From NCBI GenBank assembly GCA_024653965.1, contig JANLGW010000019.1, positions 1-43,463 on the forward strand: a stretch of DNA of 43,463 bases. The letters are read 5' to 3'. The first letter of the stretch is position 1. Every line of letters starts with the position of its first letter. The position numbers and the translations under genes were made by a program. Of the stretch, positions 15,994 through 32,816 are shown piece after piece. The notes under the pieces were generated by a model, which worked only from the letters and a program-made list of their open reading frames with translations, was not told the DNA's origin and searched no databases. Source of the stretch: Rhodospirillales bacterium (GTDB lineage Bacteria; Pseudomonadota; Alphaproteobacteria; Rhodospirillales; Magnetovibrionaceae).

Positions 15994-16245
15994 AAAGGCT
16001 TCAAGCTCCAAAAACATGTTGACAACAGAAATGTAATTTAAGGGTATGAAAAAATATACAAAAATAGATTTCAATTTTATTGGAGAGGCCTCATAATAAC
16101 AGGGTTATATTTTAGCTGACAATGTAAGCTAAGGAGGCAAGCGCTCTTTCTACAACAAACATCCCGCAGCGTTAGAATGGCTCTGAAGATGTTGGTGTTC
16201 AAGACTCATTGTTTTGGTAGAAACCATTTTTCATGAGGTGTTATT
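15994..16245. promoter_or_regulatory. Divergent region between rfbH-like and pseF-like genes
   Basis: This region should contain two divergent promoters. An inverted repeat TTAGCT (16112-16117) / AGCTAA (16127-16132) lies midway and could be an operator. A GAGG ribosome-binding site at 16235-16238 serves the pseF-like gene. No sigma-54 or clear sigma-70 motif was recognised. Confidence 0.35.
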
Positions 16246-16938
16246 ATCCGAGTTTGCATAATCCCCGCACGAGGGGGAAGCGAGAGGATTCCGCATAAGA
16301 ACATCAAGTTTTTTTGCGGCAAACCCATCATCGCGTATTCCATCACAGCCGCCCTGGAAAGTCAGTGTTTCGATAGAGTTATCGTATCCACTGATTCACC
16401 TGAAATCGCCGATGTGGCTAGAAAGTACGGCGCTGAAGTGCCGTTCCTTCGCCCCGCAGAACTGGCCGATGCCTATATAGGCATTGGGGGCCCCCTCAGC
16501 CATGCGATCAATTGGTTGCGTGAAAATGACCGGCAACCAGATTTTGTCTGCCTTTTGCTCGCAACGGCTCCGTTTGTGCGACCGCAAATACTCCGAGATG
16601 CCTTCTCTCTGCTCGAAAAAAATCCATCCAAATTCTTTTGTTTTGGCGTCGTTAAGTTTGAGGCTCCGATCCAACGCGCCTTTAAAATTTCGCAACAGGG
16701 CACGATAGAGATGTTCCAGCCGGAATACTTTGAATCCAGATCCCAAGACCTGGAGCCAGCTTATCACGATGCCGCGCAATTTTGTTGGGGACGAATAGAG
16801 GGCTTTTTGAACGAAATACCCCCATTTTCAGGCCATTCTATACCCTACATTCTACCATCGTCAGAAGTTCAGGACATTGATACACAGGAAGACTGGGATA
16901 AAGCCGAAAAAATGTATTGCCGTGGAAAGGACGCATAG
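16246..16938 (+). CDS. pseF: CMP-pseudaminic acid (nonulosonate) cytidylyltransferase, ATC start proposed
   Basis: A 230-aa CMP-nonulosonate synthetase that activates pseudaminic acid or a relative with CTP. From 16246 the frame reads (M)RVCIIPARGGSKRIPHKNI, the exact family N-terminus including the CTP-binding ARGGSKRI loop. It continues with CGKPIIAYSI, VSTDSPEIA, and ends with QDIDTQEDWDKAE, also typical. There is no ATG, GTG or TTG in frame between the TGA at 16234-16236 and these essential motifs; the ATC at 16246 sits 7 nt after GAGG where the family has its Met. Either ATC is used, an ATG was mutated, or there is a frameshift or sequence error. A start at GTG 16414 would remove the active site. 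pseG follows after 11 nt. Confidence 0.85.
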   Translation: MRVCIIPARGGSERIPHKNIKFFCGKPIIAYSITAALESQCFDRVIVSTDSPEIADVARKYGAEVPFLRPAELADAYIGIGGPLSHAINWLRENDRQPDFVCLLLATAPFVRPQILRDAFSLLEKNPSKFFCFGVVKFEAPIQRAFKISQQGTIEMFQPEYFESRSQDLEPAYHDAAQFCWGRIEGFLNEIPPFSGHSIPYILPSSEVQDIDTQEDWDKAEKMYCRGKDA

Positions 16939-16949: not shown

Positions 16950-18584
16950 ATGGGCACCATTGTATTTCGAACACATGCTGGTGAAATGACTGGATTGGGT
17001 CACATGGTGCGCTGTGCTGATTTGGCCAGAGAACTTATAACCCATGGCGCTCAGTGCATTTTCTTAGTTGATTTTCTTGAGGATGCTGTTGCGCCATTCG
17101 TTGACGACTTGGACGTCCGTGCGCTTTATGACAGGCCACCAGAACGCCTTGACTTGGAAGTCGATGCACGTTTGGTGGCCGAGATTGTGAAAGAACAGCC
17201 TGTCGATTGGGTTGTTGTGGATGATTACCGCTTGGGTCGAGAGTGGGAGGGCGTGTTACAAAAGGCGGGCGTTAAGATTTGCGTTATAGATGATCTATTG
17301 CGTCACCATCAATGCGATGTGTTAATTGATCCCAAATGGCGTGGGGATGAGACACAGACGGCTTATGACACGCTGCTCCCATCTTCCGCACAAAAGCTAC
17401 TGGGTCCTGATTATGCCTTACTGAGTGCTCCGTTTCACAATAAGCCTAAACGACAAGTCGGCGCTTCGCAGGCGCCTTTTACAATTATGCTTGGCGTTGG
17501 TGGTGCGGGGGACATTGAGCTTTGCGCCCAGATTATTGATTGCTTGCTTGTGCATCAATCTGATTTAGGGCGGGATATTAAACTGGTTCCTGTATTGGGG
17601 CCGCTCTCTAAAAACACATCTGCCTTCGTTGAGCGCTATCATAACGTATCATCCGTTACACCGTTGGTGGGAGAGGTCGATCTGTATAACCACCTCCTTC
17701 AGAGTGATTTATACATTGGTGCTGCTGGGGGCATTCTCTATCAGCTTATGGCCTTGGGCATTCCAGCACTCACATTTGCGTTAGCTGAAAGTCAGCGCAC
17801 GGACTTAAACCATTTAGAAGACATCGGGCATTTCTTCCATATTGAAAATTGGTCGCAAAGTGAAGTCGAGAAGGTTCCTGCATTTGTTAAAACTTTGGTT
17901 CACAACTATGAGCGTGTACGACGCCTTTGCACCACTCCTAAGGTAACCATTGATGGACTTGGGACGCGCCGCATTTCGCATGTGCTTCTTGGGTTGGGAC
18001 CTAGCATCCCCGGCCAAGACGTAAGATCTTTTGGGGCACACGAAGAAGATAGGCAGCTGACTGACGAACATCGTATCCGATCTGTTTCTGATAGAGACAT
18101 CAATCATTACCTCATCAGTCGAAATCTGGATGCGAATTGTCAAAATATGATCAGTGCAAATCGAATATCGTACTTAGATCATTATTCCTGGTGGTTTAAT
18201 GTCCAGAGGTCGTCATTCTTGCTTATGAAAAATGGCTCGCCCTGTCTTTATATTTGGCATGGGATAAAAACCAGGAACAGTCGCAGCTTCTTGATCGGAG
18301 GATGGTTTGTTTGTGGCGATGCCGCCGGGTTTAGCGATGTCTTGTTGGCCCTGAATTGGCAATTGAATCACTGCGATAATGTCGCGCCAGGTGTGCCGTG
18401 GATCGCAGTTATCCATCGTCATAATAAATATGTAAAACTGATGAACGAGTATTTTGGGTTCCAAGATATTGATTTGCACCATACCTATGGAGATGACATT
18501 TCCGAAATTTTCAACGGCGCATGTTCTAGAGATTTTCACTATGTTGTGCGTGAGCCATCCTTAGCAACCCAAGCCCATAAATGA
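16950..18584 (+). CDS. pseG: UDP-2,4-diacetamido-trideoxy-altrose hydrolase fused to a GNAT-like domain (PseG-PseH type)
   Basis: A 544-aa fusion. The first ~350 residues are PseG, which removes UDP from UDP-2,4-diacetamido-2,4,6-trideoxy-L-altrose: FRTHAGEMTGLGHMVRC with catalytic His18, VVVDDYRLG, VIDDL, and the UDP-binding segment IGAAGGILYQLMALGIPAL. A C-terminal domain (about 365-544) resembles GNAT acyltransferases such as PseH, with VSDRDINHYLISRN, a YLDHYSWWFN segment and a beta-rich core, though the acyl-CoA loop is not clear. The ATG at 16950 has GAGG 9 nt upstream and gives the family start; the frame stays open upstream from TTG 16917. PseG alone usually has about 270-350 residues, so the tail is the unusual part. 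Confidence 0.88.
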   Translation: MGTIVFRTHAGEMTGLGHMVRCADLARELITHGAQCIFLVDFLEDAVAPFVDDLDVRALYDRPPERLDLEVDARLVAEIVKEQPVDWVVVDDYRLGREWEGVLQKAGVKICVIDDLLRHHQCDVLIDPKWRGDETQTAYDTLLPSSAQKLLGPDYALLSAPFHNKPKRQVGASQAPFTIMLGVGGAGDIELCAQIIDCLLVHQSDLGRDIKLVPVLGPLSKNTSAFVERYHNVSSVTPLVGEVDLYNHLLQSDLYIGAAGGILYQLMALGIPALTFALAESQRTDLNHLEDIGHFFHIENWSQSEVEKVPAFVKTLVHNYERVRRLCTTPKVTIDGLGTRRISHVLLGLGPSIPGQDVRSFGAHEEDRQLTDEHRIRSVSDRDINHYLISRNLDANCQNMISANRISYLDHYSWWFNVQRSSFLLMKNGSPCLYIWHGIKTRNSRSFLIGGWFVCGDAAGFSDVLLALNWQLNHCDNVAPGVPWIAVIHRHNKYVKLMNEYFGFQDIDLHHTYGDDISEIFNGACSRDFHYVVREPSLATQAHK

Positions 18585-18591: not shown

Positions 18592-19737
18592 TTGATCGGA
18601 TTTGATAAGACAACTACAGTATTAAGACTTGGATTCGTCGGGGGCTCGCTTGCCTCTGCGGTGGGTTATGCCCATTGGACTGCCAGCCAGCTTGATGATC
18701 GCTGGCGTGTCGTGTCAGGCTGCTTTAGCCGCAACCAGAACATCAGTGATCAAACTGGCCATGCGTGGCATTTGGCAAAAGATAAAATTTATTCGGACTG
18801 GACCAAATATGTTGCAGCAGAAAAAGACAATCTTGATGCAGTTGTGGTTTTAACGCCGACTCCCAATCATGCGGATATTGTGTGCGGTTTGCTTGAAGCA
18901 GGTCTTGGGGTGATTTGTGAGAAAGCAATGGTCTCTACCTTAGAGCAATCATTACAAATAAAGCATGCTTTGGACCGATCAAAAGGCTTTCTGGCCGTGA
19001 CCTTCAATTATAGTGGTTATCCGATGATGCGTGATTTGCGGCGTCACGTTGAAGACGGAACGCTTGGGAAGCTCAAACAAATTCAGCTTGAGATGCCATC
19101 GGATGGCTTCATTCAACCGACGGAAAAAATGCATCCGCAATCTTGGAGGCTCCGCGATGGTGAGATACCCACCATCTTGTTGGATTTGGCGGTGCATGTT
19201 CATCATATCTGTCATTTTTTGACGGACCTTGCCCCGCTGAGCGTTAATGCTGATTTTCATCATTTTTCAGACTTCGATGGCATCGTCGATGATGCTTATC
19301 TATGGGTAAATTATGAAAATGATTTTCGTGCTTCGTTCTGGGTCAGCAAGACTGCGCTGGGGTATCGCAATGGACTGCAGCTCAGATTGTTCGGCGACAA
19401 GGGGAGTGCTGAATGGCTGCAAGAAGATCCCGAACATCTGCACATCTACCGTAAAGACACAACGCGTATAACATACGACCGGGGCAATTGCGTTTATCCA
19501 GATGAAATCAGAGAGCGCTTTAAGCCAGGCCATCCGGCAGGCTTCGTTGAGGCATTTGCCAATTTATACGGCGATATTGCAGATGCTTTCGAAGTATTCC
19601 GGGTTAGTGGCCGCCATGATTCGCCATATGTTTATGGGTGGGATCACGCCAACGAAGGGATAGAGCTTTTGCACGCGGCCAGCACCGCCCACCGCACGCG
19701 CAGCTGGGCGCCTGTCGTACGAGATTTGCGATTATGA
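18592..19737 (+). CDS. Gfo/Idh/MocA family oxidoreductase
   Basis: A 381-aa NAD(P)-dependent oxidoreductase. The Rossmann N-terminus has LGFVGGSLASAVGYAHW, then VVVLTPTPNHADIVCGLLEAG and the cofactor/catalytic segment CEKAMVSTLEQS (the family usually has EKP). The C-terminal domain has LLDLAVHVHHICHFL, with the usual histidine pair. It sits between pseG and pseI, so a step on the nonulosonic acid or on its precursor, for example oxidation, epimerisation or reduction, is likely. Its only standard in-frame start is TTG at 18592, 7 nt after the pseG stop; the next gene overlaps by 4 nt (ATGA). Confidence 0.85.
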   Translation: MIGFDKTTTVLRLGFVGGSLASAVGYAHWTASQLDDRWRVVSGCFSRNQNISDQTGHAWHLAKDKIYSDWTKYVAAEKDNLDAVVVLTPTPNHADIVCGLLEAGLGVICEKAMVSTLEQSLQIKHALDRSKGFLAVTFNYSGYPMMRDLRRHVEDGTLGKLKQIQLEMPSDGFIQPTEKMHPQSWRLRDGEIPTILLDLAVHVHHICHFLTDLAPLSVNADFHHFSDFDGIVDDAYLWVNYENDFRASFWVSKTALGYRNGLQLRLFGDKGSAEWLQEDPEHLHIYRKDTTRITYDRGNCVYPDEIRERFKPGHPAGFVEAFANLYGDIADAFEVFRVSGRHDSPYVYGWDHANEGIELLHAASTAHRTRSWAPVVRDLRL

Positions 19738-20786
19738 CTAACATTAAAATTGGCAACAAACGGATAGGTGATGGTGAAGACGCTTATATTATTGCAGAGC
19801 TATCCGGTAATCACGGGGGTAAGCTTGATCACGCTCTGCGTCTGCTGCGCGCAGCCCATGAAGCAGGCGCCGACGCCGTAAAAATTCAGGTGTACCGACC
19901 TGATACCTTAACACTCGACACGGACAATCCTGATTTTGCGATCCCTCAAAATAACGCCTGGGCGGCCTATGCAAATTTGTATCAGCTTTATGAATACGCA
20001 CATACGCCTTGGCATTGGTTGGGAAAGCTTTTTGAAGAAGCAGGTAAACTGGGAATTGAACTTTTCGGTTCTGTTTTTGATGAAACGTCGGTCGATGAGT
20101 TGGAAAAGTATCAGGTCAAAGCTTATAAGATTGCCTCACCGGAAATTGTTGATCTGGCTCTCTTGCAAAAAGTTGCCAAAACACGAAAGCCGGTTATCGT
20201 ATCTACGGGCCTTGCCAATATCAGTGATATCGATACTGCGGTACGATGTCTCAGAGTGCATGGATGTCCAAACGTAATTCTACTGAAATGCACCACAGCT
20301 TATCCAACGCCGCCTGAAGAAGTAAACCTTAAAACCATTCAAAACTTAAAAGAAACCTTTTCATGCCCAGCAGGTCTGTCCGATCACACCGTTGGCATTG
20401 GTGTTTCTGTTGCTGCCGTTGCCCTCGGGGCCTCGGTGATTGAAAAACATATCAAATTAGACGATGGTGAACAGACAGTTGATGGTTTTTTCTCTCTTAC
20501 GGTTCCTGAATTTCAGATGATGGTAGATGAAATTCGCCGTGCTGAAAAAGCGGTAGGCTGTGTCCAATATGAATTGACGTCAGCAGCCCAACAAAACCAA
20601 TATGGTCGTAGATCTCTGTATGTTAGTGCCCCCATTCGCAAGGGTGAGATATTTAGCGACAACAACATCAAATCTGTTCGTCCAGGTTACGGCCTGGAGC
20701 CGAGGTTCAAACCCACCGTATTAGGGCGAAAGGCCGCAAAAGACCTGGAGGTTGGTGATCGCCTAAGCTGGGACGTGATTGAATAG
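19734..20786 (+). CDS. pseI: Pseudaminic acid synthase (NeuB family)
   Basis: A 350-aa PEP-condensing synthase that joins PEP to 2,4-diacetamido-trideoxy-altrose to give pseudaminic acid. The NeuB domain has IIAELSGNHGG, AVKIQVYRPDTLTLD, YEYAHTPWHWL, FGSVFDETSVDEL, YKIASPEI and GLSDHTVGI, which follow PseI rather than sialic-acid synthase at several positions (TLTLD, TPW-W). The C-terminal SAF (antifreeze-like) domain runs from RRSLYVSAPIRKGE to LEVGDRLSWDV. The start at 19734 overlaps the oxidoreductase stop as ATGA, so the two are translationally coupled. PseB and PseC, needed to make the substrate, are not in the window. Confidence 0.9.
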   Translation: MTNIKIGNKRIGDGEDAYIIAELSGNHGGKLDHALRLLRAAHEAGADAVKIQVYRPDTLTLDTDNPDFAIPQNNAWAAYANLYQLYEYAHTPWHWLGKLFEEAGKLGIELFGSVFDETSVDELEKYQVKAYKIASPEIVDLALLQKVAKTRKPVIVSTGLANISDIDTAVRCLRVHGCPNVILLKCTTAYPTPPEEVNLKTIQNLKETFSCPAGLSDHTVGIGVSVAAVALGASVIEKHIKLDDGEQTVDGFFSLTVPEFQMMVDEIRRAEKAVGCVQYELTSAAQQNQYGRRSLYVSAPIRKGEIFSDNNIKSVRPGYGLEPRFKPTVLGRKAAKDLEVGDRLSWDVIE

Positions 20787-20797
20787 ATGAGGATGAT

Positions 20798-21058
20798 ATG
20801 ACAGACACAATAAAAGCCGAAATTCAATCCTTCGTAGCAGACTATATTCGCAATCACGCTACAGGGGAGGAGGTGGTGGTGGACGAAACAACCAATTTTG
20901 TTGACAGTCGCCTTCTTGATTCGTTTGCAATTTTAAGTCTAATTTTAACGCTAGAAACTCAATATTCAGTTCGATTTCAACCTCAAGAATTAGTTGATCC
21001 CCGCTTACACACTGTGGGGGGGCTTACACAGGTGATTAATAATAAAACCACCACGTAA
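20798..21058 (+). CDS. Acyl/peptidyl carrier protein
   Basis: An 86-aa acidic, helical protein with the carrier-protein fold. The phosphopantetheine site is DSRLLDSFAILSL, where the Ser of LLDSF replaces the usual G(x)DSL serine context. A GAGGATGAT ribosome-binding region precedes the ATG. It lies 11 nt after pseI and 11 nt before an adenylating ligase, so the pair probably loads an organic acid on this carrier for transfer to the sugar. The identity of the acid cannot be read from the sequence. Confidence 0.85.
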   Translation: MTDTIKAEIQSFVADYIRNHATGEEVVVDETTNFVDSRLLDSFAILSLILTLETQYSVRFQPQELVDPRLHTVGGLTQVINNKTTT

Positions 21059-21069
21059 TAGGGTATTTT

Positions 21070-22602
21070 ATGGCGTACATCTATACTGCCTTTCGCGATA
21101 TGGCAAAGCGTTTCCCGCAAAAAAATGCGCTGGTCGCTCAAGGTCAGATCCATAGTTATGGAGCGCTCAGCCGTCAGGCGGATTTGTGGGCGGCGTTCCT
21201 GTATGCGCGAATTGAACAAAAACAGCCTCGGGTTGCCATTCTTGTAGAAGACCCATTCCATTCCATAACAATCTCTTTAGGGGTCGCGCGCCTTGATGGG
21301 GTTTGTATACCAACCAATTCGCAGTTGCCGTCAGAACAACAGCTAGAAAATTGGGAAACGACGGATGTTTGTGTTGTCATCTACGAGCCTATTCTCGAGC
21401 ACAAAATTAAAGCGTTGATGTGTGGCGACCTCATCTTTATTTCCACACGAGAGCTTGAGCACTTTGAATCTGACACGGTAACTTCTGAAATACCAGCTTC
21501 TTTCCCGTGGACGGACCAAGCCGGTTTTCTGATCGCGTTTTCTTCGGGCTCGACGGGCACGCCTAAGCCGACGGTTTTATCGCAAGAGACAAAGTGTAAA
21601 CGCGCAAAACAAACTTGGGATTTATACAATCTCTCATCTGACGATGTTGTGCTGTGCGCATCCCCTTATTTTCATTCTTTGGGGCAACGCTTGGTCTATG
21701 TGGCGCTATTGCTCGGCGCAACCCTGGTGTACGTTACAAAGTTTGCGCCAAAGCTTTGGCTTGGTCTTGTTCATGAGTATAAAGTCAGCTTTGCCATAAG
21801 TGTTTCCTCTCACCTATACGCGTTAAAAGACGCGCTTTTGCAAAATGCTGAGCAACTTCGATCTTTAAAAACCATTGTGACATCATCGGCACCGATTGAC
21901 GCAGGTTTTAAGAACCAACTCTTTGAAGCGATAGGCTGTGATTTTAACGAAATTTATGGCGCTACGGAAATTGCCATCGCCACCAATTTGACCAAGGACG
22001 ATGCAACCCAAAAATATATGACGGTAGGCACCCCGTGTTCAAATGTTCAGGTGCGCATTCTGGACGATGCGCGCAGAATTATCCCAATTAACACAATTGG
22101 TGAAATCGCGGTGAAGTCCCCTGTCGTCTTTGATGGCTATTATAAGCAACCTGAAGCCACACGGCAGGCCTTCATCGATGGCTTTTTCCTGACGGGTGAT
22201 TTGGGCTATTTTGATGGCGACGGCTTTCTGACGTACGTGTCACGAAAAAAAGACGTCATTATTTCTGGGGGGATCAATATATACCCCAAGGAGATTGAGG
22301 CAGTAATTGCCCAGGACGATGAGGTTCGTGAAGTAGCTGTCATTGGCGTTGAAGATAAAATGTTTGGTGAGGTCGCCATTGCCATATGCATTACCGAAGG
22401 CAATAAAAACATTGCCCCCCAACTCCATCGCCTTGCCAATATTCACTTAGCACCACATCAACGCCCACTGAAGTATTTTTTTCTAGAAAGCTTGCCCTTG
22501 ACGTCAACTGGCAAGGTCTCGAAGTTGGCATTGCGTGAGCATTTTAACGGATTAAATCAAGACTGGACGTTACCTCTGCGCAAGATAATTTATGGTGAAT
22601 GA
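21070..22602 (+). CDS. AMP-dependent acyl/aryl-type ligase
   Basis: A 510-aa ANL-superfamily adenylating enzyme. Core motifs are SSGSTGTPKPTVL (A3/P-loop), YGATEIAIATN (A5), LTGDLGYFDGDGFLTYVSRKKD (A7-A8), GGINIYPKEIE and TSTGKVSK with the catalytic lysine (A10). At the A4 position it reads CASPYFHSLGQ and lacks the Asp that holds the amino group in amino-acid domains, so a carboxylic or hydroxy acid is more likely than an amino acid. It follows a carrier protein and overlaps the next gene by 11 nt. It probably activates the acid and loads the neighbouring carrier. Confidence 0.87.
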   Translation: MAYIYTAFRDMAKRFPQKNALVAQGQIHSYGALSRQADLWAAFLYARIEQKQPRVAILVEDPFHSITISLGVARLDGVCIPTNSQLPSEQQLENWETTDVCVVIYEPILEHKIKALMCGDLIFISTRELEHFESDTVTSEIPASFPWTDQAGFLIAFSSGSTGTPKPTVLSQETKCKRAKQTWDLYNLSSDDVVLCASPYFHSLGQRLVYVALLLGATLVYVTKFAPKLWLGLVHEYKVSFAISVSSHLYALKDALLQNAEQLRSLKTIVTSSAPIDAGFKNQLFEAIGCDFNEIYGATEIAIATNLTKDDATQKYMTVGTPCSNVQVRILDDARRIIPINTIGEIAVKSPVVFDGYYKQPEATRQAFIDGFFLTGDLGYFDGDGFLTYVSRKKDVIISGGINIYPKEIEAVIAQDDEVREVAVIGVEDKMFGEVAIAICITEGNKNIAPQLHRLANIHLAPHQRPLKYFFLESLPLTSTGKVSKLALREHFNGLNQDWTLPLRKIIYGE

Positions 22603-23698
22603 AATGTGTGCAATGGATGGGGTATACATTTATGGAGCCGGCATTCAGGGAAAATTTTTTTTTGATATTATACAGTCAGAAGGTACGCGGATCGATTGTT
22701 TTGTAGATGATTATTACGAGGCCCCAACATGTAAGGGTAAACCCGTTATTCGGGCCCATGAAATTCGAAATAAACAAGCATATATTTTTATATCCGTCGG
22801 TCTTATCAGTACCAAAATTAAATCGAACTTGGTTTCTCAGGGGTTCGAAAATGTATTCGACTTTACCCAATCCGTATTAAAATTTCCGGCCATTATTCAG
22901 TCTTTGAAGGGTATGAGCCTTTGGTATTCAGACACGCTTTCTGACATGGTCAATGATGAGGGTATTGCTGAATTCCGAACGCTATTGAGTGATGAAAAAA
23001 GCAAAAACCTGCTGGATACAATAGCGGCTTTTCGGCGTGACTTCAGTCCCGAGAATTATGTTATCCCAGATGGGAACATACAATATTTTCCAGATGATAT
23101 TGACGTGTTTTCAAACATTGACGCCGTTCGATTTGTGGATGCGGGGGCGTATATAGGTGACACCGTTGGAACGTTGGCGCGTGTTTGCAAAGAGCGAAAT
23201 ATTTTCTTTGAATATGGGGCTTGTTTTGAACCCGATAGAAAAAACCTTGCCGCACTCAAATCCAGAGTGGCGAAGCTGCGGTCTGACGATAACGGGTTGC
23301 GATTTTTTGTTTACCCCGCAGGAGTCTGGCATCAGTCAGAAATCTTAACATTTAGCGCAGATCAAGCCGCGTCGAGTTGCGTCGTTGAGGGCATACGGGA
23401 TAAGGCTGTAACGAATTCAATTTCCGGTCTCGCCATTGATGATTGCCTGTTTAATGCGGCCCCAAATTTTATCAAGTTGGATGTTGAGGGGGCTGAGCAA
23501 AATGCCTTGATGGGGGCGCGACAGTGCATCGAAACTTATCATCCTGTACTGGCAATATGTCTCTACCATCGGCCGCGCGACCTATGGGAATTGCCGTTGT
23601 TCGTCCATAGCCTGTCCGTTAATTACGATATGTTTTTGCGTGTTTATGGCGATATGCTGCTTGAAACCGTTCTATACTGTGTGCCGAAGAAGGTCTAA
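22592..23698 (+). CDS. FkbM-family methyltransferase with N-terminal Rossmann-like domain
   Basis: A 368-aa protein. Residues 1-110 have VYIYGAGIQGKFFFDII, then DCFVDDY and YIFISVG, a nucleotide-binding-like domain also seen in the radical SAM gene at 8470 and at the C-terminus of the methyltransferase at 9779. The second half is FkbM-type: FVDAGAYIGDTVGTL (SAM motif I), CFEPDRKNL, FIKLDVEGAEQNALMGA and HPVLAICLYHRPRDLW. FkbM enzymes O-methylate sugars or polyketides, so O-methylation of the glycan or its acyl group is likely. It is the last gene of the pse operon, and its start overlaps the ligase. Confidence 0.88.
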   Translation: MVNEMCAMDGVYIYGAGIQGKFFFDIIQSEGTRIDCFVDDYYEAPTCKGKPVIRAHEIRNKQAYIFISVGLISTKIKSNLVSQGFENVFDFTQSVLKFPAIIQSLKGMSLWYSDTLSDMVNDEGIAEFRTLLSDEKSKNLLDTIAAFRRDFSPENYVIPDGNIQYFPDDIDVFSNIDAVRFVDAGAYIGDTVGTLARVCKERNIFFEYGACFEPDRKNLAALKSRVAKLRSDDNGLRFFVYPAGVWHQSEILTFSADQAASSCVVEGIRDKAVTNSISGLAIDDCLFNAAPNFIKLDVEGAEQNALMGARQCIETYHPVLAICLYHRPRDLWELPLFVHSLSVNYDMFLRVYGDMLLETVLYCVPKKV

Positions 23699-23745
23699 CT
23701 TGAATCATACCCCGCCTAATAGGTCATGAATTTCGCAAATTGGCA

Positions 23746-25338
23746 TCATGGCACGTTTGTATCTTGAGCGTATCCTGACCGGCTTGTAACACGAGGCAAC
23801 GCATTGGCTTCAGTCAAGCCAAACCGGGTCATTTGGTTTCGAGTTAGGGTATTGATTTCATCGCGGTAGGATTTAATTTCTTCCAGTGTCATGCCCTTGG
23901 CACGCAAGTAGGCAATTTCCCATAACGTATAGTCAGGGTTGATGAAGGTCACGTTGTCAATTTCCATGAATATGCGATTTACGTGTGCGGTGGCTTCTAC
24001 CCAGTTCATCGTGTTGTGGCTCCAAAATGCGCCTTCACCTTGGAGGCCATATTCTTGAGCGCGATCCTCAACTGGGGTGTGATGCAAGTAATAGAAGGGC
24101 TGTATGTAGTAGTAATCAAGATCAGACTCTTCGATGAATCTCTGAGTAATCTGTACGGTATGCTCCGTTTCACCGGGGAAACCCATGATGAACGACCCTA
24201 CGGTGAGGATATTTGCCTGTTTGAGCCAAGCAATTCCGCGTTTGTAGAAGTCTATGATTGCCCCTTTTTTCATGGCTTTTAAAATGTCGTTCGATCCTGA
24301 TTCAATACCTAGGTACACGCCGGCACAGCCGGTACTTTTCATTTTAGCCACGATCTTTTCGTCAATGTATTGCGCGCGAATGAAGGAATACCACGGAATA
24401 TTGAAACCGATCTCAATCATGATGTTGAGAACATTTTCAAAACGATCCTTCGGGACATTGAATGTATCATCAACAAAAAATATGGCGCTCAATTTGGCAT
24501 CCATTATTCTTTTTAATGTTAGACGAACATTTTCCATGCTGAGTGTCGCCAGCGGTCCGGCAACGGAAGGGTATGAGCAAAAGGCACACTTGAAAGAACA
24601 ACTCCGCGCCGTCCGAACGTTTGCAATGCTGCCGGGTAGAATGTTTTCAAAGCTGCTCAACGTAAAATTAATATCATTGTCCTCGGCGCTGCGGTGCGTG
24701 AGAACAATATCATTACCATCACGGATGACTAGATTAGGTATTGCATTCAATCGATTGGGGTATGTTTGGGCAATTTGCAGCATTGCATGTTCGCCCTGCG
24801 GGTCAACGACAAATGCATCAAATCCTGTGTCGCGCAGATACGACTTGGCAGTTTCGTCCGTGGCATGATTCAACGTCGTGAATACATGATGTCCACCTGC
24901 CATTAAAAAAGTGTTGGGAAATTGTTTGCGAAGGGTTTGCCCAAGCCCCATAAACTGTTTGAAAGTAAGTACAAACGTTGTAGATGCAGCAATGATGTCA
25001 GGGGCAAAATCGTGAAGATCAGTCCAGATTTTTTCGGCATTATGGTCATCTATGAAGTTGATGATTTTGACCTCAAAGCCGTGTGCTTTCAGCATTTGTG
25101 CCAATAACAATTGAGCGCATAAATACATCTCCCAAACACTAAATGGCGTTTCAGGAGGAAGGCCCTTTTTCTCTTTCAAATAAGCAATATGATCAATCAG
25201 CCGATCATCTTCCGTCAGGACACGCGTGTAGTTGAAGGCTTGCATCTGGGTTTTTGCACGGGCTGGGTTGGTCGATAGAGGCATGGACACGGGATTTGGA
25301 ACCATGTGGCCTATTAAAGCGATCTTTATAGCCGACAT
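23746..25338 (-). CDS. B12-binding-type radical SAM protein
   Basis: A 530-aa radical SAM protein. The N-terminal ~190 residues are of the B12-binding type but diverged, with FMGLGQTLRKQFPNTFLMAGGHHVF near 129-153. The cluster ligands are Cys247, Cys251 and Cys254 (RSCSFKCAFC). The barrel has FFVDDTFN, YLGIESGSNDIL and GSFIMGFPGET, typical of the BchE/Elp3-like barrel. It is probably a methylase or other radical enzyme with an unknown substrate. The start at 25338 shares one base with the stop of the acyltransferase gene (TAATG), so the pair is translationally coupled. The frame is open upstream to 25404, but that segment is antisense-like noise. Confidence 0.87.
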   Translation of the reverse strand: MSAIKIALIGHMVPNPVSMPLSTNPARAKTQMQAFNYTRVLTEDDRLIDHIAYLKEKKGLPPETPFSVWEMYLCAQLLLAQMLKAHGFEVKIINFIDDHNAEKIWTDLHDFAPDIIAASTTFVLTFKQFMGLGQTLRKQFPNTFLMAGGHHVFTTLNHATDETAKSYLRDTGFDAFVVDPQGEHAMLQIAQTYPNRLNAIPNLVIRDGNDIVLTHRSAEDNDINFTLSSFENILPGSIANVRTARSCSFKCAFCSYPSVAGPLATLSMENVRLTLKRIMDAKLSAIFFVDDTFNVPKDRFENVLNIMIEIGFNIPWYSFIRAQYIDEKIVAKMKSTGCAGVYLGIESGSNDILKAMKKGAIIDFYKRGIAWLKQANILTVGSFIMGFPGETEHTVQITQRFIEESDLDYYYIQPFYYLHHTPVEDRAQEYGLQGEGAFWSHNTMNWVEATAHVNRIFMEIDNVTFINPDYTLWEIAYLRAKGMTLEEIKSYRDEINTLTRNQMTRFGLTEANALPRVTSRSGYAQDTNVP

Positions 25339-25349
25339 TATGCTCTCTC
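25336..25349 (-). repeat. 14-bp direct repeat, copy 1
   Basis: The minus-strand sequence GAGAGAGCATAATG occurs here and again at 26136-26149, exactly 800 bp away. This copy holds the stop of the acyltransferase gene, the start of the radical SAM gene and its ribosome-binding site. Confidence 0.95.
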
Positions 25350-26138
25350 CGGGTTTTCGAGGACCATCGCGTAGGGGTCGTCTCGTACCATGGACATGGC
25401 GCAATCGTGCGCCTCTTTAACGGTCATGTAAGTGCTGTAACCATAGGCACAAGGCTTTCTTGTGAGCAGCCCGTGGTTTGTCATTAACTCTTCAACAGCG
25501 TTATAGTTTTCGAGGTATCTCCGGTGTTTGTTGCCATCGCGTAAATCTGCCGTCGGGCGGCCATAATATTCGACAATAATATCCAATATATTGCCATGAG
25601 CATCTTTTCGCCGTCGCGGTATCTGTATGGACTCTCTGTAAGGCACTCGGGCTGTGTACTCAACGTAATGCATATAACTTGCACCCTCATTAAAGTTTAC
25701 CCCTAACATGAGCATATGAAATCCATGCTCATGAAAAATTTGAAAGTCACAACCATCACCTAGCGATACGTTACCGCTAACAGTGTCGAGTAAATTGGCT
25801 TTATTGCCTACGCCCAAATGGCTGTGAATCGGGCAAGCGCTGCGATGCCAATTGCCTTGGTTCCAAATGAAGTTGGTGAGGCTACCCATTCCCTGAGGTT
25901 CTGTGTGATGTGGATCAAATATGTATCCTTCAGGCATATAAAGATTGAAGGCAGGGACGATCAACGTTCCCTGAGGGCCAATGGCATTTTGCAAGGCGTC
26001 GAATACGCTGGCCGCTCCACGTTGAAGATAGCCTAGGGCAAGCAAGCGGCTATGTACGAGGACATGGTGTCCAGAGCGCAAACCCAAATCGTAAAGATAG
26101 CTGTCCAATTCTTCGTCGGTGAGTTTTAGAATTGGCAT
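25338..26138 (-). CDS. AAC(3)-family N-acyltransferase
   Basis: A 266-aa protein of the aminoglycoside N3-acetyltransferase fold. It has GHHVLVHSRLLALGYL near the start, GPQGTLIVPAFN, then the conserved HRSACPIHSHLGVG (the RS-x2-P-x2-S motif) and GASYMHYVEYTARVPYR around the catalytic His/Glu. In surface-sugar clusters this fold acetylates or acylates amino-sugars rather than antibiotics, so an N-acyl transfer onto a nonulosonic acid or other amino sugar is likely. It is coupled to the downstream radical SAM gene. The whole gene lies between two perfect 14-bp direct repeats and follows an IS3 remnant, suggesting acquisition as a unit. Confidence 0.87.
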   Translation of the reverse strand: MPILKLTDEELDSYLYDLGLRSGHHVLVHSRLLALGYLQRGAASVFDALQNAIGPQGTLIVPAFNLYMPEGYIFDPHHTEPQGMGSLTNFIWNQGNWHRSACPIHSHLGVGNKANLLDTVSGNVSLGDGCDFQIFHEHGFHMLMLGVNFNEGASYMHYVEYTARVPYRESIQIPRRRKDAHGNILDIIVEYYGRPTADLRDGNKHRRYLENYNAVEELMTNHGLLTRKPCAYGYSTYMTVKEAHDCAMSMVRDDPYAMVLENPERA

Positions 26139-26149
26139 TATGCTCTCTC
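26136..26149 (-). repeat. 14-bp direct repeat, copy 2
   Basis: The second perfect copy of GAGAGAGCATAATG (see 25336-25349). It supplies the ribosome-binding site and ATG of the acyltransferase gene. Confidence 0.95.
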
Positions 26150-26156
26150 AATAATT

Positions 26157-26318
26157 TTAGAAGACAACACTTTTTGAATTGATGTTCTTGACCATGGCGT
26201 TGTCGAGCATCGCCTTGCTGACGCCATGACAGAGGCAAACGTCGGCAGCCCTCTGCCCCGTCTCCTGTTCGCACAAAATCCTCATAATTTGTTCTACTGT
26301 GAAGCTTGAACGCCTCAT
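26157..26318 (-). pseudogene. IS3-family OrfA remnant (N-terminal helix-turn-helix)
   Basis: A 53-codon frame reads MRRSSFTVEQIMRILCEQET, followed by GQRAADVCLCHGVSKAML, the DNA-binding N-terminus of IS3-family OrfA (compare the usual KRSRFTEEQI-ILKEQEAG-ADLCRKHGIS). Similarity fades after HGVS and the frame ends at TAA, so about half of OrfA and all of OrfB are missing. It has the same direction as the OrfB remnant at 28117-28350 and lies just behind the carrier-protein gene. It sits 8 nt before the direct repeat that opens the acyltransferase gene. Confidence 0.8.
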
Positions 26319-26343
26319 ATCTATCTCCTTCTAGGAGACAGAT
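26319..26343 (-). repeat. Imperfect hairpin overlapping carrier-protein stop and OrfA ribosome-binding site
   Basis: Arms ATCTATCTCCT (26319-26329) and AGGAGACAGAT (26333-26343) pair at 10 of 11 positions around a TCT loop. On the minus strand the hairpin spans the carrier-protein stop and the AGGAG before the OrfA remnant. It could be part of the left end of the IS, or fold the mRNA to hide that ribosome-binding site. Confidence 0.7.
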
Positions 26344-26597
26344 TCGAGTCTCAGGTTAGCAGCGCCACTATCCGTTAACTTGGCTTTGTAGGTTTGAATG
26401 ATTCCTGCCATGGACTGGTGGGTGCGAATGCCGTCATCATCTATACACACGCCATAGTGCTCTTCTAGCGCCATCATGACATTGAGATGACCAAGGCTGT
26501 CCCACATAGGATGGGCATTAAGGGCACTCATGTCACTGAGGCTATCAGTGCTGCATCCCAAAGCATCAGCAACCAAATCAAATGGGGATTTCAACAT
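26331..26597 (-). CDS. Acyl/peptidyl carrier protein (second)
   Basis: An 88-aa carrier protein. The phosphopantetheine site is HPMWDSLGHLNVMMALEE, with the canonical DSL serine. Helix II and the following acidic DDDG segment match the DltC/PCP type. It lies 23 nt after an adenylation-domain gene on the same strand and is the likely acceptor for the amino acid activated by it. Its last ~10 codons (ANLRLESVS) lead straight into IS3-derived sequence, so the C-terminus may have been reshaped by the insertion. Confidence 0.86.
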   Translation of the reverse strand: MLKSPFDLVADALGCSTDSLSDMSALNAHPMWDSLGHLNVMMALEEHYGVCIDDDGIRTHQSMAGIIQTYKAKLTDSGAANLRLESVS

Positions 26598-26620
26598 ATA
26601 GCGTTCCTTTCTGAAAACAC

Positions 26621-28093
26621 TTACACGTTCTTCTGAACGTGTTCTTCCAGCGCCCTATGGTCTATCTTATCATTAACATTTCGGGGCAATCTACTCACTT
26701 GATGAAAATACTTGGGAATTGCGTATGTTTCCAAGTGGTTGCCCAGGTGTTTAACGAGTTCTGATGGATTGAGGGGCTCTTTGGGATCTTGTTCTATGAA
26801 ACAATGAAGTTCGTTTCTAACCACGACGGCGTATGCCACGGTAGATGTTAACTTTCGGACAGCCGCATTTATATCTTCAAGTTCAATGCGGTAGCCATTT
26901 ATTTTGGCCTGAAAATCAATGCGAGATACGAAAAATAAATCGTTCTCTTCATAGGCCGCCCAATCCCCTGTGAAGTAAGCTTGAGTTGCCACGCCATTGA
27001 TATCAAGAGTGCGAAACGCTTGGTGCGTCGCTTTGGGATTGTTCCAATACCCTTTGGCGACTTGCGGCCCTGAAATGACGATTTCTCCTTCATTTGAGTG
27101 GCTACCTCCAACTAAATGCAGCTCCATCCCAGAAATGGGGGAGCCAAGCGCGGCGGAGGATTTGCAATGCAGTTTGTAGGTATCTGCCGTTAATTTTATG
27201 AGGGTAAAAGAGACGGTCGCTTCTGTTGGGCCATAGGTATTGTGTACGATGAGATTGGGAAGTGCTGAAAATAAACCGTCAAGATGCTCTGGCAATAATG
27301 GTTCACCGCAAAATGTCGCGAGGCGCAGCGTCCGCAAATGGGTGGTTGTAAGTTGTGTCGCTTGCATCATCATACCGATAACGCTCGGCACGGAATTCCA
27401 GATCGTCAGGCCATGTTTTTGAATGGTTCGTGCGGGCATCATGCGGTCAACTTCACTTGTGAATGGGTATAGTGTCGCACCACTACAGAGCGCCCCGTAG
27501 ATATCCAAAACACTTAAATCAAACGAAATGGGCGGGAACTGTGACCATTTATCGTTGGGCGAAGGGGCCATTGCCTGGATGGCCCAGTCAATGTAATGCC
27601 CCAGCCCTTGGCGCCCAACTTCAACGCCTTTGGGAATTCCGGTTGAGCCAGATGTGAAAATCACATACGCCAATTCATGTTGTGCAAGCGGCTGGGAGAG
27701 AACGTCATCACCAAGCTTGTCCAAATTGATGACCTGGGCTGAGCCAATTTGTGCAACATCGAGATCGCATTTATTTTGAGCATTAGTATTGGTGATGATG
27801 ACGTTAGGTTTAAATTGATCAATCACATTTTGTTGACGCTCAGCAGGAGCGTCCAGATTGATGGGGGCATAATACCCGCCCACCATGAGCGTAGCGAACA
27901 TTGCCGCATAGGCATTGGCACCCTGTGGCAGGCAAATTAAAACTTTAGGATGTGAACACACGGCTGTTTCGTGTGCAATCCTGGATATGAAGTGGGCCAG
28001 TTCTCCAAAGGTGATGACGCCGCATGCCTCATGCACGGCTTTATGATCTGGCATGCGGGCCGCTATATCAAAAAAGCGATCTAAAACGTCCAT
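26621..28093 (-). CDS. Amino-acid adenylation domain protein (DltA/NRPS-like)
   Basis: A 490-aa stand-alone adenylation enzyme. Core motifs include YVIFTSGSTGIPKGVEVG (A3), FPPISFDLSVLDIYGALCSG (A4, with the Asp that binds the substrate amino group), HNTYGPTEATVSF (A5), YFTGDWAAYEENDLFFVSRIDFQAKINGYRIELEDI split over A7-A9, and NDKIDHRAL at A10. It should activate a small amino acid and load the adjacent carrier. The ATG at 28093 begins MDVLDRFFDIA; a TTG 15 nt further upstream is also possible. The IS3 OrfB remnant ends about 20 nt before the start, so the native promoter was probably lost or replaced. Confidence 0.88.
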   Translation of the reverse strand: MDVLDRFFDIAARMPDHKAVHEACGVITFGELAHFISRIAHETAVCSHPKVLICLPQGANAYAAMFATLMVGGYYAPINLDAPAERQQNVIDQFKPNVIITNTNAQNKCDLDVAQIGSAQVINLDKLGDDVLSQPLAQHELAYVIFTSGSTGIPKGVEVGRQGLGHYIDWAIQAMAPSPNDKWSQFPPISFDLSVLDIYGALCSGATLYPFTSEVDRMMPARTIQKHGLTIWNSVPSVIGMMMQATQLTTTHLRTLRLATFCGEPLLPEHLDGLFSALPNLIVHNTYGPTEATVSFTLIKLTADTYKLHCKSSAALGSPISGMELHLVGGSHSNEGEIVISGPQVAKGYWNNPKATHQAFRTLDINGVATQAYFTGDWAAYEENDLFFVSRIDFQAKINGYRIELEDINAAVRKLTSTVAYAVVVRNELHCFIEQDPKEPLNPSELVKHLGNHLETYAIPKYFHQVSRLPRNVNDKIDHRALEEHVQKNV

Positions 28094-28116
28094 ATCACTG
28101 TATTTCAATCAACTCA

Positions 28117-28350
28117 TCATCTGAGCTTAATGTTGCTCTGATACCGAAGTTTGGACCGCCGGAGGCTGGAGCTTTCCGGCTGTAACCCCGGTAACGGGCT
28201 GGCTTCGTTACCGGGGTTTTGCAATGCAATCGGCACGTTGTACCTGATCGTGCTGTGAGGACGAACCTTATTGTAGTATTGACGCCAATCCTCCAACTTT
28301 TCGTAAGCATCTGCAAGCGTCAAGAACCCGTGCGCGTTTAAACATTCCAT
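28117..28350 (-). pseudogene. IS3-family transposase OrfB, C-terminal remnant
   Basis: About 77 codons of an OrfB C-terminus: ECLNAHGFLTLADAYEKLED, then WRQYYNKVRPHSTIRYNVPIAL, matching the end of the integrase-core region, where DDE-transposase sequences of this family read ECLNAHWF-LADA-EKLE-WR-YYN-RPH. The 5' part, with the catalytic Asp residues, is absent; the break is near 28350. It points in the same direction as the OrfA remnant at 26157-26318, with the adenylation/carrier gene pair between them. Confidence 0.87.
28184..28218. repeat. Perfect 13-bp inverted repeat in the IS3 remnant
   Basis: AACCCCGGTAACG at 28184-28196 pairs fully with CGTTACCGGGGTT at 28206-28218 around a 9-nt loop. 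On the plus strand it is followed by TT, giving a TTTT end, so it could act as a weak terminator or block readthrough. It lies in the coding frame of the OrfB remnant, which is unusual for a coding sequence. Confidence 0.85.
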
Positions 28351-28859: not shown

Positions 28860-29327
28860 TCAAGCTTGCTCATCGTCTCGAGAAGAAGGCCCGTCCTCTA
28901 GGTCATTTTCCGCCAAGAAAGCTTTCAGCTGTTCGCTGAATTTTTGAAGTACTTTTGATTCATATTTGATTAGATTTTGTGCCTCTTTTAGACCCTTGTA
29001 TATGCGTTCATTATTGACGTGATCGCGCACCTTGAGGGCAATTTCCATGGCGCTGGGACATGCAGCGATAAATTCATTAAGGCGTTGGTCAAAGCGCTTG
29101 AGGCAGCCTTCACGTTCGGTTTGATCAAGGGAGATGTAGGCATTTTGCAGCTCGAAATACACGCGGGATGCCGGCGTTTGTGCATCTTCACCCGCCAGGA
29201 CTTCTTTTTCACGTAAAATAGCGGAGTTGTTGTGCACCAAAATCTTGGTGTTACTGCCGATGTTTTCGAGTACGGAGCCGTTGATAATCAGTTTATCGCC
29301 GGATTTGAAGTCGATCAAAAGAGGCAC
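28860..29327 (-). CDS. flbT: Flagellar biosynthesis repressor FlbT
   Basis: A 155-aa FlbT. In Caulobacter this protein binds flagellin mRNA and links its translation and decay to filament assembly. The family N-terminus is clear: FKSGDKLIINGSVLENIGSN, then LREKEVLAGEDAQTPASRVYFELQNAYIS, and later NNERIYKGLKEAQNLIKYE. The start is GTG at 29327, with GGGGA 6 nt upstream. The last ~25 residues are acidic and variable. It is the final gene of the flagellar block and faces the IS junction. The target would be the flagellin whose 3' end opens this window. Confidence 0.92.
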   Translation of the reverse strand: MPLLIDFKSGDKLIINGSVLENIGSNTKILVHNNSAILREKEVLAGEDAQTPASRVYFELQNAYISLDQTEREGCLKRFDQRLNEFIAACPSAMEIALKVRDHVNNERIYKGLKEAQNLIKYESKVLQKFSEQLKAFLAENDLEDGPSSRDDEQA

Positions 29328-29386
29328 GTTAAATCCCCAAAATGTGAACGGAGCAGAACCGCAGAAAGGGGTTCTTGGGTGAGCAA

Positions 29387-30256
29387 CTATACAAACAGAT
29401 TCATTACCGACCCGGGGTCAATTTGGTTGCCTTCCAAAGACGCGCCAAGCTTTTCCAGAGAATCAATGCGCGCTTCGAAAGACAGGGAAATCACCCGCAA
29501 GATGTTGCCGTATTTGGATTTGATGGCGGTGACTTCGTCTTCGCGGCGCTGCAATTCGACGTCCGATATTTCAGTCATATCTGCGAGTTTAGTCGCCAAG
29601 GTCGATGATAGATCTAAAGAAATATAGGTGGTGTTTTCTTCGGTCGTGGTGGTGACGTTATAGGCCGTGTCGATCAGGTTTTTTAATGTCGTGATATCGG
29701 TAAGGATTTGCCGATTTGCATTGGTTGCCGGCTCGGTCCCTGCCGCATCAACGACTCCCTCTACTGGGGACATGCTTTTCAGCGTATCCAGCATGTTTTT
29801 GACATCGCGGACGACGTAAGGGGTCGCAATGTCAGGATGAATGGAAAGCAGTAGGCCTTCGGTATCCTCGATCAGTTTATCGCGTTTCGCCGTTAGGGTC
29901 GCCAGTTCAGTGGCGGTCAAGTTGGTGTCGGCGTCTTCGTTTGAAAATGCGGCAATGGCCTCATCTGCTGCCGTTGCCATGCGCGCGAGGCGAGTTTGGT
30001 TTGATCTCATGTCGAAGTCGAAACTGTCGATTAACGCCTTGTTCTTTTCCAGCGTGACATATTCACGTTCCAATGCGGCGAGGCGTTTGGGGGTGTCGTC
30101 ATTGTTGTTAACGCGATCAATTTCAGAGTTGATCCGGTTGACGGTCGTTTTTTGAATCTGGCTGAATTGCTGCTCAAAGCCGAAACGAAAATTATTCGCC
30201 GAGAGCTTGCTCAAGACGCTTCCGAGACTCAGGCCATAGGCACTTAACGGGTTCAT
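29387..30256 (-). CDS. Uncharacterised flagellar-locus protein, coiled-coil rich
   Basis: A 289-aa protein that I do not recognise. The N-terminus (MNPLSAYGLSLGSVLSKLSA) recalls the unstructured starts of flagellar axial proteins. Heptad-like helices lie around 20-75 (QKTTVNRINSEIDRVNN, RLAALEREYVTLEKNK) and at the C-terminus (RREDEVTAIKSKYGNILRVI). No signal peptide, membrane segment or enzyme motif was seen. The start at 30256 is preferred because it places GGAG 10 nt upstream; an earlier GTG/ATG extension to 30286 is possible. It sits between flaF and flbT in a flagellar operon, so a role in flagellin export, assembly or capping is plausible but unproven. Confidence 0.75.
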   Translation of the reverse strand: MNPLSAYGLSLGSVLSKLSANNFRFGFEQQFSQIQKTTVNRINSEIDRVNNNDDTPKRLAALEREYVTLEKNKALIDSFDFDMRSNQTRLARMATAADEAIAAFSNEDADTNLTATELATLTAKRDKLIEDTEGLLLSIHPDIATPYVVRDVKNMLDTLKSMSPVEGVVDAAGTEPATNANRQILTDITTLKNLIDTAYNVTTTTEENTTYISLDLSSTLATKLADMTEISDVELQRREDEVTAIKSKYGNILRVISLSFEARIDSLEKLGASLEGNQIDPGSVMNLFV

Positions 30257-30383
30257 TCTTCCCGATCTCCACTGAGGGCACCGCAACCGTGCCCATGACG
30301 CCCTTCTGGGCCATTCCTATGCGACCCCCAAAGTATAGCATTTCTGCGCAAAAAGACAAGCGTGCGCCAATGATGCGTAAGAC

Positions 30384-30860
30384 TTAGGCGTTGGTGTTCA
30401 GGCTGCCGCGACTGACGGGGGCGGCGTTACCCGATTGGGCGTTTGATTGAGCCTGTTTGGCCTCGTTATCGAGGACCCTGTTCAAGCCTTCCAACAAACC
30501 TTGGGCAATGTTGCGGTTGATGTCGATCAGGGTCTTGATCTGGTTGGGCTCAAGGTCACGCAGGCATATAATCGTATGATTGTCGACAAACTGGCACAGC
30601 GTAAGCATGTTTTGGCGTAAATCCATGGGTACGGGATTGGTTTCCAGTGTTAACTCGGCCTGAAAAATCGTCCAAAGGCGCCAATTGAGGCGGATGGCGT
30701 CGCGCAATTCGCGGTTTGCCGCGGGGATTTGCAATTCTTCGGCAGCGGCGGCGCGTTCTATCGCCATGGCGATACGTCGCGCGGCTTCGGTTAAGGCCCA
30801 GGCTTCAGAATGGCTGGGTGAGCCCGCAGCAGGTATGGATGAATAGGTCTGCGTTGACAT
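30384..30860 (-). CDS. flaF: Flagellar biosynthesis regulator FlaF
   Basis: A 158-aa FlaF, a positive partner of FlbT in flagellin expression and secretion. The family core is clear: EAWALTEAARRIAMAIERA, LRDAIRLNWRLWTIFQAEL, and PMDLRQNMLTLCQFVDNHTI. The C-terminal ~35 residues are Asn/Gln/Ala-rich and longer than in typical FlaF (about 115-130 aa). It is the first gene of the flaF-unknown-flbT group. Confidence 0.92.
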   Translation of the reverse strand: MSTQTYSSIPAAGSPSHSEAWALTEAARRIAMAIERAAAAEELQIPAANRELRDAIRLNWRLWTIFQAELTLETNPVPMDLRQNMLTLCQFVDNHTIICLRDLEPNQIKTLIDINRNIAQGLLEGLNRVLDNEAKQAQSNAQSGNAAPVSRGSLNTNA

Positions 30861-30880
30861 ATGAGCTCCACTCTCAGGTC

Positions 30881-30924
30881 TTAAGGATAGCCAATTGCGA
30901 ATGAATAATAGGTGTTAAGGATAG
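30881..30924. promoter_or_regulatory. Two 10-bp direct repeats upstream of flaF
   Basis: TTAAGGATAG occurs at 30881-30890 and 30915-30924, 34 bp apart (start to start), in the 118-nt gap between flgL and flaF. It may be a regulator-binding site or a promoter element. No sigma-54 motif was found in this gap. Confidence 0.4.
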
Positions 30925-30978
30925 GATTGCCTGTAGGGTATGTCCAGGGTAATCCGGCAACTTATTAATAACCCTTGA

Positions 30979-32790: not shown

Positions 32791-32816
32791 AATTGCAGTC
32801 TCCTTTCCCCACCTTA

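Follow-up and report, generated by a model that had tools for sequence, protein, structure and literature searches.

Our analysis window (positions 1 to 43,463 of contig JANLGW010000019.1 from the Rhodospirillales bacterium assembly GCA_024653965.1, Magnetovibrionaceae; 43,463 nt) carries a gene for an acyltransferase of the AAC(3) (Antibiotic_NAT) family, which is flanked by two pairs of a carrier protein and an adenylating enzyme within a pseudaminic acid (Pse) island adjoining flagellar genes. Module A (20798-23698, plus strand) forms the tail of the CMP-Pse operon and encodes a carrier, an acid-type ligase and an FkbM methyltransferase. Module B (28108-23746, minus strand) encodes an amino-acid ligase similar to DltA and AlmE, a carrier, the AAC(3)-like protein and a B12-dependent radical S-adenosylmethionine (SAM) methylase. 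An initial annotation, made from the sequence letters, had placed both carrier/ligase pairs and the AAC(3)-like gene here, and each of these features was confirmed with Pfam and NCBIfam models. The adjacency of ligase, carrier and transferase is not a chance arrangement, because it was kept across genomes and none of these genes turned up in 15 control stretches of the same kind of genome (~20 kb in 14 cases, 1 kb in one).

Ligase B scored best against AA-adenyl-dom TIGR01733 (302 bits) and DltA models (298 and 290 bits). It carries the Asp at A4 (PPISFDLSVLDIYG; the D in SFDLSV) as well as an FCGE motif, and its nine-residue specificity code reads D-L-L-S-T-C-T-V-S. The same alignment gave D-L-H-S-F-C-L-I-A for AlmE (glycine), D-L-M-S-M-C-T-V-A for DltA (D-alanine) and D-L-L-S-L-A-L-V-C for a proline ligase, with the pocket of ligase B closest to AlmE (4oxi) and DltA (3e7w). 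Its orthologues were 60-62% and 46-47% identical; the code was unchanged in those of L095 and L096, and that of L117 was one residue or less from AlmE. On these pocket residues, the substrate of ligase B is likely a small amino acid of Ala, Gly or Ser size. A contig scan returned no close relative of ligase B (best 31% identity, mostly Bradyrhizobium acyl-CoA ligases), and a class-wide search at E 1e-75 recovered the window alone (1/385 genomes), which indicates that close orthologues are limited to near relatives.

Carrier B, which we propose is loaded by ligase B, begins 23 nt after it. The Pfam PP-binding model was sub-threshold on carrier B alone (E 0.07), and its cut-off was passed by the carrier relatives in L097 and L117. 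Orthologues of carrier B (74% and 64% identical) occupy the same position, and the D-S pair with the attachment Ser was invariant in 11/11 aligned carriers; the genome has two matches to phosphopantetheinyl transferase families. Module B combines an A-type ligase bearing the amino-acid Asp with a separate carrier bearing the phosphopantetheine Ser, as in Dlt- and Alm-type systems. The AAC(3)-like protein matches PF02522 over its full length (99.7 bits, residues 27-250 on model positions 1-230), and its stop codon overlaps the ATG of the radical SAM gene.

The triad of ligase B, carrier B and AAC(3)-like gene was kept in three relatives (G004, G006 and G002) with differing neighbours. In G004 it includes the same radical SAM gene in the same operon (72% identical, L095) and lies near flagellin and Maf genes, and DUF4910/DUF2172 was among the cassette neighbours in all three. 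More remote versions of the cassette recur with DUF4910, often with NeuB or CMP-transferase genes. Near 39 DUF4910 genes, we detected AAC(3)-like genes in 19 cases, A-type ligases in 14 and carriers in 17; at the 30 DUF4910 loci outside the seeds of our hidden Markov models (HMMs), the corresponding counts were 10, 7 and 9. When PF02522 genes were taken unselected from 60 relatives, 18/23 were fused to or lay within ~2.5 kb of a loader or carrier (ligase 13, FkbH 4, carrier alone 1). The 13/23 AAC(3)-family genes next to a ligase correspond to ~1e-12 or rarer under a rough binomial expectation; the genomes are also related, and the HMM seeds overlap some of the tested loci. Phylum-wide, an FkbH or ligase gene was nearby in 14/20 inspected AAC(3) neighbourhoods, mostly those of top scorers.

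Domain fusions point in the same direction. A 1417-aa protein (L112:9170-13423) joins formyltransferase, A-type, PP-binding and AAC(3) domains in one chain; the genes after it encode a probable phosphopantetheinyl transferase, a DUF4910 protein and a carbamoyltransferase (17181-19025). An AAC(3)-FkbH fusion (L180:7007-9871) ends in a carrier-like C-terminus containing KWDSKGQ, and further AAC(3)-FkbH fusions occur at L124:3458-5980 and L146:10623-13187; these suggest glyceryl transfer by the same transferase family. Gene context thus points to a carrier as the acyl donor of the AAC(3)-like protein, for which we propose a role as carrier-dependent N-aminoacyltransferase from its family and neighbours. 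The partnership with an aminoacyl carrier that the initial annotation had suspected gained support from the kept cassette and from the fusion of A-type, carrier and AAC(3) domains. Single-sequence AlphaFold models were unusable, with pLDDT of 33 for the AAC(3)-like protein and 31 for the C-terminal domain of PseG.

Module A continues an operon for CMP-Pse, in which orthologues of PseI, PseG and PseF stand together (Table 1). The predicted link to nonulosonic acid (NulO) synthesis was borne out, with PseG and PseI above curated cut-offs and PseF just below. The shortfall of PseF arises because the listed open reading frame, which begins at GTG 16414, lacks the N-terminus; the homologous frame is open from ~16237. 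No ATG, GTG or TTG lies near the expected N-terminus, and either an unusual start codon or a sequence error would account for this. PseF orthologues were 82% and 50-54% identical, in the same gene order. PseB and PseC were not found in the window, which was the range of the search, and the DegT-family protein there is RfbH. No match to PseH (TIGR03585) was obtained anywhere in the genome; if the pathway is complete, its step would fall to the C-terminal domain of PseG or to the AAC(3)-like protein. The former (~17817-18584) had no Pfam match, and a four-sequence profile of it weakly matched PDB 3eo4 (MJ1062; E 0.002), which we take to be a GNAT protein. The fusion of PseG with this GNAT-like domain was retained in L172, L173 and L174, and the domain may replace PseH; its earlier nomination as a second candidate transferase was upheld.

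Carrier A is separated by 11 nt from PseI and by 11 nt from ligase A, which in turn overlaps the PglD_N/FkbM gene by 11 nt; from such spacings (7-11 nt) and overlaps, the Pse genes and module A form one operon. Carrier A alone was sub-threshold for the Pfam PP-binding model (E 0.003), with orthologues 48-56% identical. Ligase A, its proposed loader, had fatty-acyl, malonyl and o-succinylbenzoate CoA ligases as top family models. Its A4 stretch, SPYFHSLGQR, has no Asp and was the same in four orthologues, in contrast to PPISFDLSVLDIYG in ligase B, as had been claimed at the outset; family models and A4 residues together agree that the two pairs serve different substrate classes. The nine-residue code of ligase A (S-L-R-S-V-S-I-I-A) was nearly identical in its orthologues, which were 68/53/51% identical overall and each adjoined the same carrier. 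In sequence, ligase A resembles acid-activating ligases. For the FkbM protein we propose O-methylation of the acyl group or the sugar; its orthologue in L173 was 53% identical and the gene is retained in G033. The order PseF, PseG::GNAT, Gfo, PseI, carrier A and ligase A was syntenic in G007, G015 and G033, which represent the same family and another family of the same order. No match to module A was obtained in a distant DNA search of plasmids.

The expected connection to flagella also held. In G033 and G015 the Pse and module A genes adjoin homologues of FlgL/FlgK or of FlbT/FlaF/FlgL, as in the window, and flagellar-gene homologues stand beside module A in L173 and L174. FlbT was identified by PF07378, with the names FlaF, FlgL and FlgK taken from position and a reading of the sequence.

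Table 1 Features of the Pse island and its flanks (positions in the window).
Feature	Position	Strand	Evidence or remark
PseF, CMP-pseudaminic acid cytidylyltransferase	16237..16938	+	TIGR03584 193 bits, cut-off 205.7
PseG UDP-sugar hydrolase with C-terminal GNAT-like domain	16950..18584	+	TIGR03590 163.5 bits, cut-off 153.6
Gfo/Idh/MocA oxidoreductase	18592..19737	+	PF01408, PF22725; within Pse operon, syntenic
PseI, pseudaminic acid synthase (NeuB family)	19734..20786	+	TIGR03586 433 bits, cut-off 340
Carrier A	20798..21058	+	86 aa, VDSRLLDSFAILSLI; 4'-phosphopantetheine Ser in LLDSFAIL
Ligase A, acid-type acyl-AMP ligase	21070..22602	+	AMP-binding 1.8e-58 and AMP-binding_C
PglD_N-like domain and FkbM methyltransferase	22592..23698	+	TIGR01444 over cut-off, PF17836
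Cobalamin-binding radical SAM methyltransferase, PhpK/BcpD type	23746..25338	-	PF04055, PF02310; CxxxCxxC in SCSFKCAFC
AAC(3)-family (Antibiotic_NAT) protein	25338..26138	-	PF02522 2.4e-28
IS3-type OrfA remnant	26157..26318	-	HTH_Tnp_1 24.3 bits (above cut-off); separates AAC(3) from carrier B
Carrier B	26331..26597	-	HPMWDSLGHLNV; Ser in MWDSLGHL
Ligase B, DltA/AlmE-like aminoacyl-AMP ligase	26621..28108	-	AMP-binding 7.3e-59
IS3-type OrfB C-terminal remnant	28117..28350	-	rve_3 44 bits; upstream of ligase B
Flagellar genes (FlbT; FlaF, FlgL, FlgK)	28860..35057	-	Flank island; FlbT by PF07378

We consider it probable, from gene content and order, that the island makes an N-acylated Pse for the flagellum through two carrier-based acyl supply lines. 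Ligase B would adenylate a small amino acid and load it onto carrier B; the AAC(3)-like enzyme would accept this aminoacyl group in place of acetyl from CoA and form an amide on an amine of Pse or of a UDP-diamino-sugar precursor. The B12 radical SAM enzyme could C-methylate the amino acid or the product, and DUF4910, where present, may free the 5-N amine. In the other line, ligase A would load a non-amino organic or hydroxy acid onto carrier A. For transfer of this acid at the 4-amino step, the work of PseH in the canonical pathway, the strongest candidate is the GNAT-like domain that PseG carries; FkbM might O-methylate the acyl group from module A. CMP-Pse from PseI and PseF would then go to flagellin. 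The overall interpretation of the initial annotation, that carrier-bound acyl and aminoacyl groups are attached to the two amino groups of a NulO, is supported in part: the sequence shows the families and motifs, the conserved gene neighbours, the operon layout, the fused domains and the position beside flagellar genes, and from these we infer what is transferred and by what chemistry, which amine accepts it, in what order the steps run and that the product reaches flagellin. As to a wider role, the odds appear even that this branch of the AAC(3) superfamily comprises general carrier-dependent N-acyltransferases of NulO pathways, whose loaders are interchangeable (A-type ligases load amino acids, FkbH loads glycerate) and which DUF4910 assists, and that in this genome the flagellar sugar receives a different acyl group from each of two such supply lines.

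Several points weigh against these proposals. The AAC(3)-like or GNAT-like enzymes could still draw their acyl groups from CoA, and the two modules may act on separate glycans. Five of the 23 AAC(3) relatives had no loader nearby, and the counted neighbourhoods come mostly from related genomes, some of them sources of the HMM seeds. In addition, module B is interrupted by remnants of IS3 insertion sequences (IS), has its DUF4910 partner on a different contig and may be decaying in this genome.

An alternative for module A is that its ligase and carrier work together to activate fatty acids, in which case the island would attach or prime a lipid; such a "liposugar" has been proposed for enterobacterial islands. 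Fatty-acyl CoA ligase models did give the best scores for ligase A, and the carrier, CaiC and LuxE genes of flagellin islands have been read in this way (PMC4875605). We nonetheless regard this as unlikely: in the pocket of ligase A a conserved Arg occupies the site that corresponds to residue 239 of PheA, module A is tied into the soluble Pse operon, and in Shewanella the flagellin NulO substituent (an O-methylated, nitrogen-free moiety of 236-264 Da) gave dehydrated ions that are oxygen-rich and do not indicate a plain fatty chain.

An alternative for module B makes the AAC(3)-like protein an ordinary acetyl-CoA-dependent N-acetyltransferase (aminoglycoside-type or a PseH substitute) and has the ligase and carrier genes serve something else. 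This would fit its membership of a family of CoA-using AAC(3), FrbF and YokD proteins, but AAC(3) domains are fused to A-carrier and FkbH-carrier modules, the loaders adjoin in 18/23 cases as given above, and the score against the curated resistance model NF033082 (73 bits, cut-off 270) is far too low, so that we think this improbable. Plain aminoglycoside resistance was rejected as a function of this gene, which fell far under curated AAC(3) cut-offs. Among the matches listed in a plasmid search with the AAC(3)-like query, only AAC(3) proteins ~27% identical appeared.

Decay offers a different explanation, in which module B is a remnant without current function in this genome. The IS3 OrfA and OrfB remnants lie on either side of ligase B and carrier B, and L096 has DUF4910 where the window has the OrfA remnant. 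DUF4910 is missing from the window; one is present in the genome on contig C17 (L110, G000; 2386-4023), followed by a truncated AAC(3) of ~80 aa. Against this, all four reading frames of module B are intact, the pocket code is the same as in L095 and L096, and the AAC(3) and radical SAM genes overlap, which makes loss of function a rather remote prospect in our view. A degraded transposase with a LPPKSPELNPVENVW-type motif (28366-28863), which is presumably IS630-like, lies upstream of the IS3 remnant.

Module B could also represent a short nonribosomal-peptide or other natural-product unit that came to lie beside the flagellar genes, unlinked to the flagellar sugar, but this appears very unlikely. 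In favour of such a unit, ligase B has a genuine A-type domain for amino acids, the radical SAM enzyme belongs to the PhpK family known from phosphinothricin-type pathways, and the island is low in GC content with IS remnants flanking module B. Against it, condensation or thioesterase domains were not found in module B, genes of its type recur with NeuB, CMP-transferase, DUF4910 and Maf, and Cj1295, placed in the DUF4910/DUF2172 family via PMC4000134 and PMC6321876, acts on flagellin Pse. A complete nonribosomal peptide synthetase was rejected, with neither of those domains detected in the module proteins. The radical SAM protein is related to PhpK and was rejected as a true member, falling under the TIGR04479 cut-off (374 bits against 600).

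Our reading of module B as a donor of aminoacyl groups to Pse is in line with the Dlt (DltA/DltC, D-alanylation of teichoic acid) and AlmEFG (glycylation of lipid A) systems, where a stand-alone ligase likewise loads a stand-alone carrier with a small amino acid and a surface molecule is decorated; the pocket of ligase B is close to those of DltA and AlmE. It differs in that the proposed transferase is a soluble AAC(3)-family protein rather than DltB/DltD or AlmG, and in that the proposed product is an amide on a sugar amine, with a cytosolic nucleotide-sugar pathway intermediate as acceptor. No DltB/DltD MBOAT or AlmG-type transferase was found among the scanned island proteins.

A parallel on flagellin itself comes from Campylobacter jejuni, where Pse carries a 5-N-di-O-methylglyceryl group dependent on Cj1295 (PMC3068675). 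The glycan masses (391 vs 317) differ by +74, which is dimethylglyceryl minus acetyl (Pse5dimethylglycerate7Ac in the table of that paper), so an acyl group can replace the 5-N-acetyl there. In the Cj1295-Cj1302 region, the Pse genes have as neighbours an N-acetyltransferase (Cj1296/7) and a gene with an FkbH domain (Cj1302) (PMC3068675, PMC7099621); compared by description, its loader is of FkbH type (glycerate), unlike the amino-acid A-type ligase of our window. By our reading Cj1295 belongs to the DUF4910/DUF2172 family, since it is annotated as an aminopeptidase, PMC6321876 gives both names and PMC4000134 lists Campylobacter; the DUF4910 structure paper did not find the standard peptidase site (PMC4000134). 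A search for literature on Cj1298-Cj1308 gave no result. In Clostridium acetobutylicum, CA_C2186-2199 includes NeuB, Maf, DUF4910, an aminosugar N-acetyltransferase, an acyl carrier protein (ACP) and an N-acetyltransferase with a HAD domain (PMC4000134), though unlike in the window an A-type ligase is not listed.

For module A, the closest precedents are Aeromonas group II and enterobacterial flagellin islands, in which an ACP and an AMP-dependent synthetase (CaiC type) lie between Pse genes (PMC7874193, PMC4875605). Those islands also have FabG, LuxE and LuxC, and an aminoacyl module or AAC(3) is not reported for them; among the scanned island proteins here we found no FabG, LuxE or LuxC, and only the ACP and ligase of the Aeromonas group II set. 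Transfer from an ACP to a UDP-aminosugar has been proposed for the R-group of the Flavobacterium psychrophilum O-antigen (WfpD/WfpG), where a dedicated carrier is predicted to pass an acyl group to UDP-Qui2NAc4N (PMC6519341), although with a PglD-type acyltransferase, acyl synthesis of fatty-acid-synthase type and lipopolysaccharide instead of flagellin. The biochemistry of carrier-based transfer is not shown in PMC7874193, PMC4875605, PMC3068675 or PMC6519341. Amino-acid-derived N-acyl groups occur on flagellin sugars of C. botulinum and C. difficile (Leg5GluNMe7Ac; taurinyl-Ala-Gly on Fuc3N; PMC5207245), but on other sugars, with biosynthesis untested or credited to other ligases; in V. cholerae O1, perosamine is acylated by tetronate. 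In the searched literature, a cassette of A-type ligase, carrier and AAC(3) serving NulOs was not described. The suggestion that the pathway is undescribed is only partly right: within that literature it holds for this cassette, but carrier and ligase genes as such are known from flagellin islands.

Many flagellin and surface NulOs bear N-acyl groups other than acetyl, and no enzyme attaching them was found characterised in the searched literature. The cassette of ligase or FkbH, carrier, AAC(3) and DUF4910 would be a concrete gene set for this step, and suggests a possible route for glyceryl attachment on Campylobacter flagellin. It would also imply that many "aminoglycoside 3-N-acetyltransferase" annotations near such clusters denote sugar-decorating enzymes rather than resistance genes.

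Promoter and terminator scans performed no better than chance level. The GC content of the island (16237-28108) was 0.44-0.49, vs 0.54-0.60 in FlgK and one neighbouring gene, which suggests recent acquisition. Upstream of the Pse operon, RfbH (14617-16074) exceeded its cut-off (PRK15407, 717 bits) and is accompanied by a thiamine pyrophosphate-dependent acetolactate-synthase-like enzyme (10977-12773), a C-methyltransferase (9779-10927), and HAD and HpcH/HpaI proteins. Together, 6492-16074 looks like a branched 3,6-dideoxyhexose pathway (yersiniose-like), which would supply a second sugar of the flagellar island. Several radical SAM genes (two SPASM/MoaA-like, two B12-binding) are also present in the flagellar island at 6492-9747 and 368-5520. 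Homologues of the genes at 6492, 7594, 8470 and 3841 occur at 80-92% identity in L115, where flagellin, Maf and DUF4910 genes are close by.

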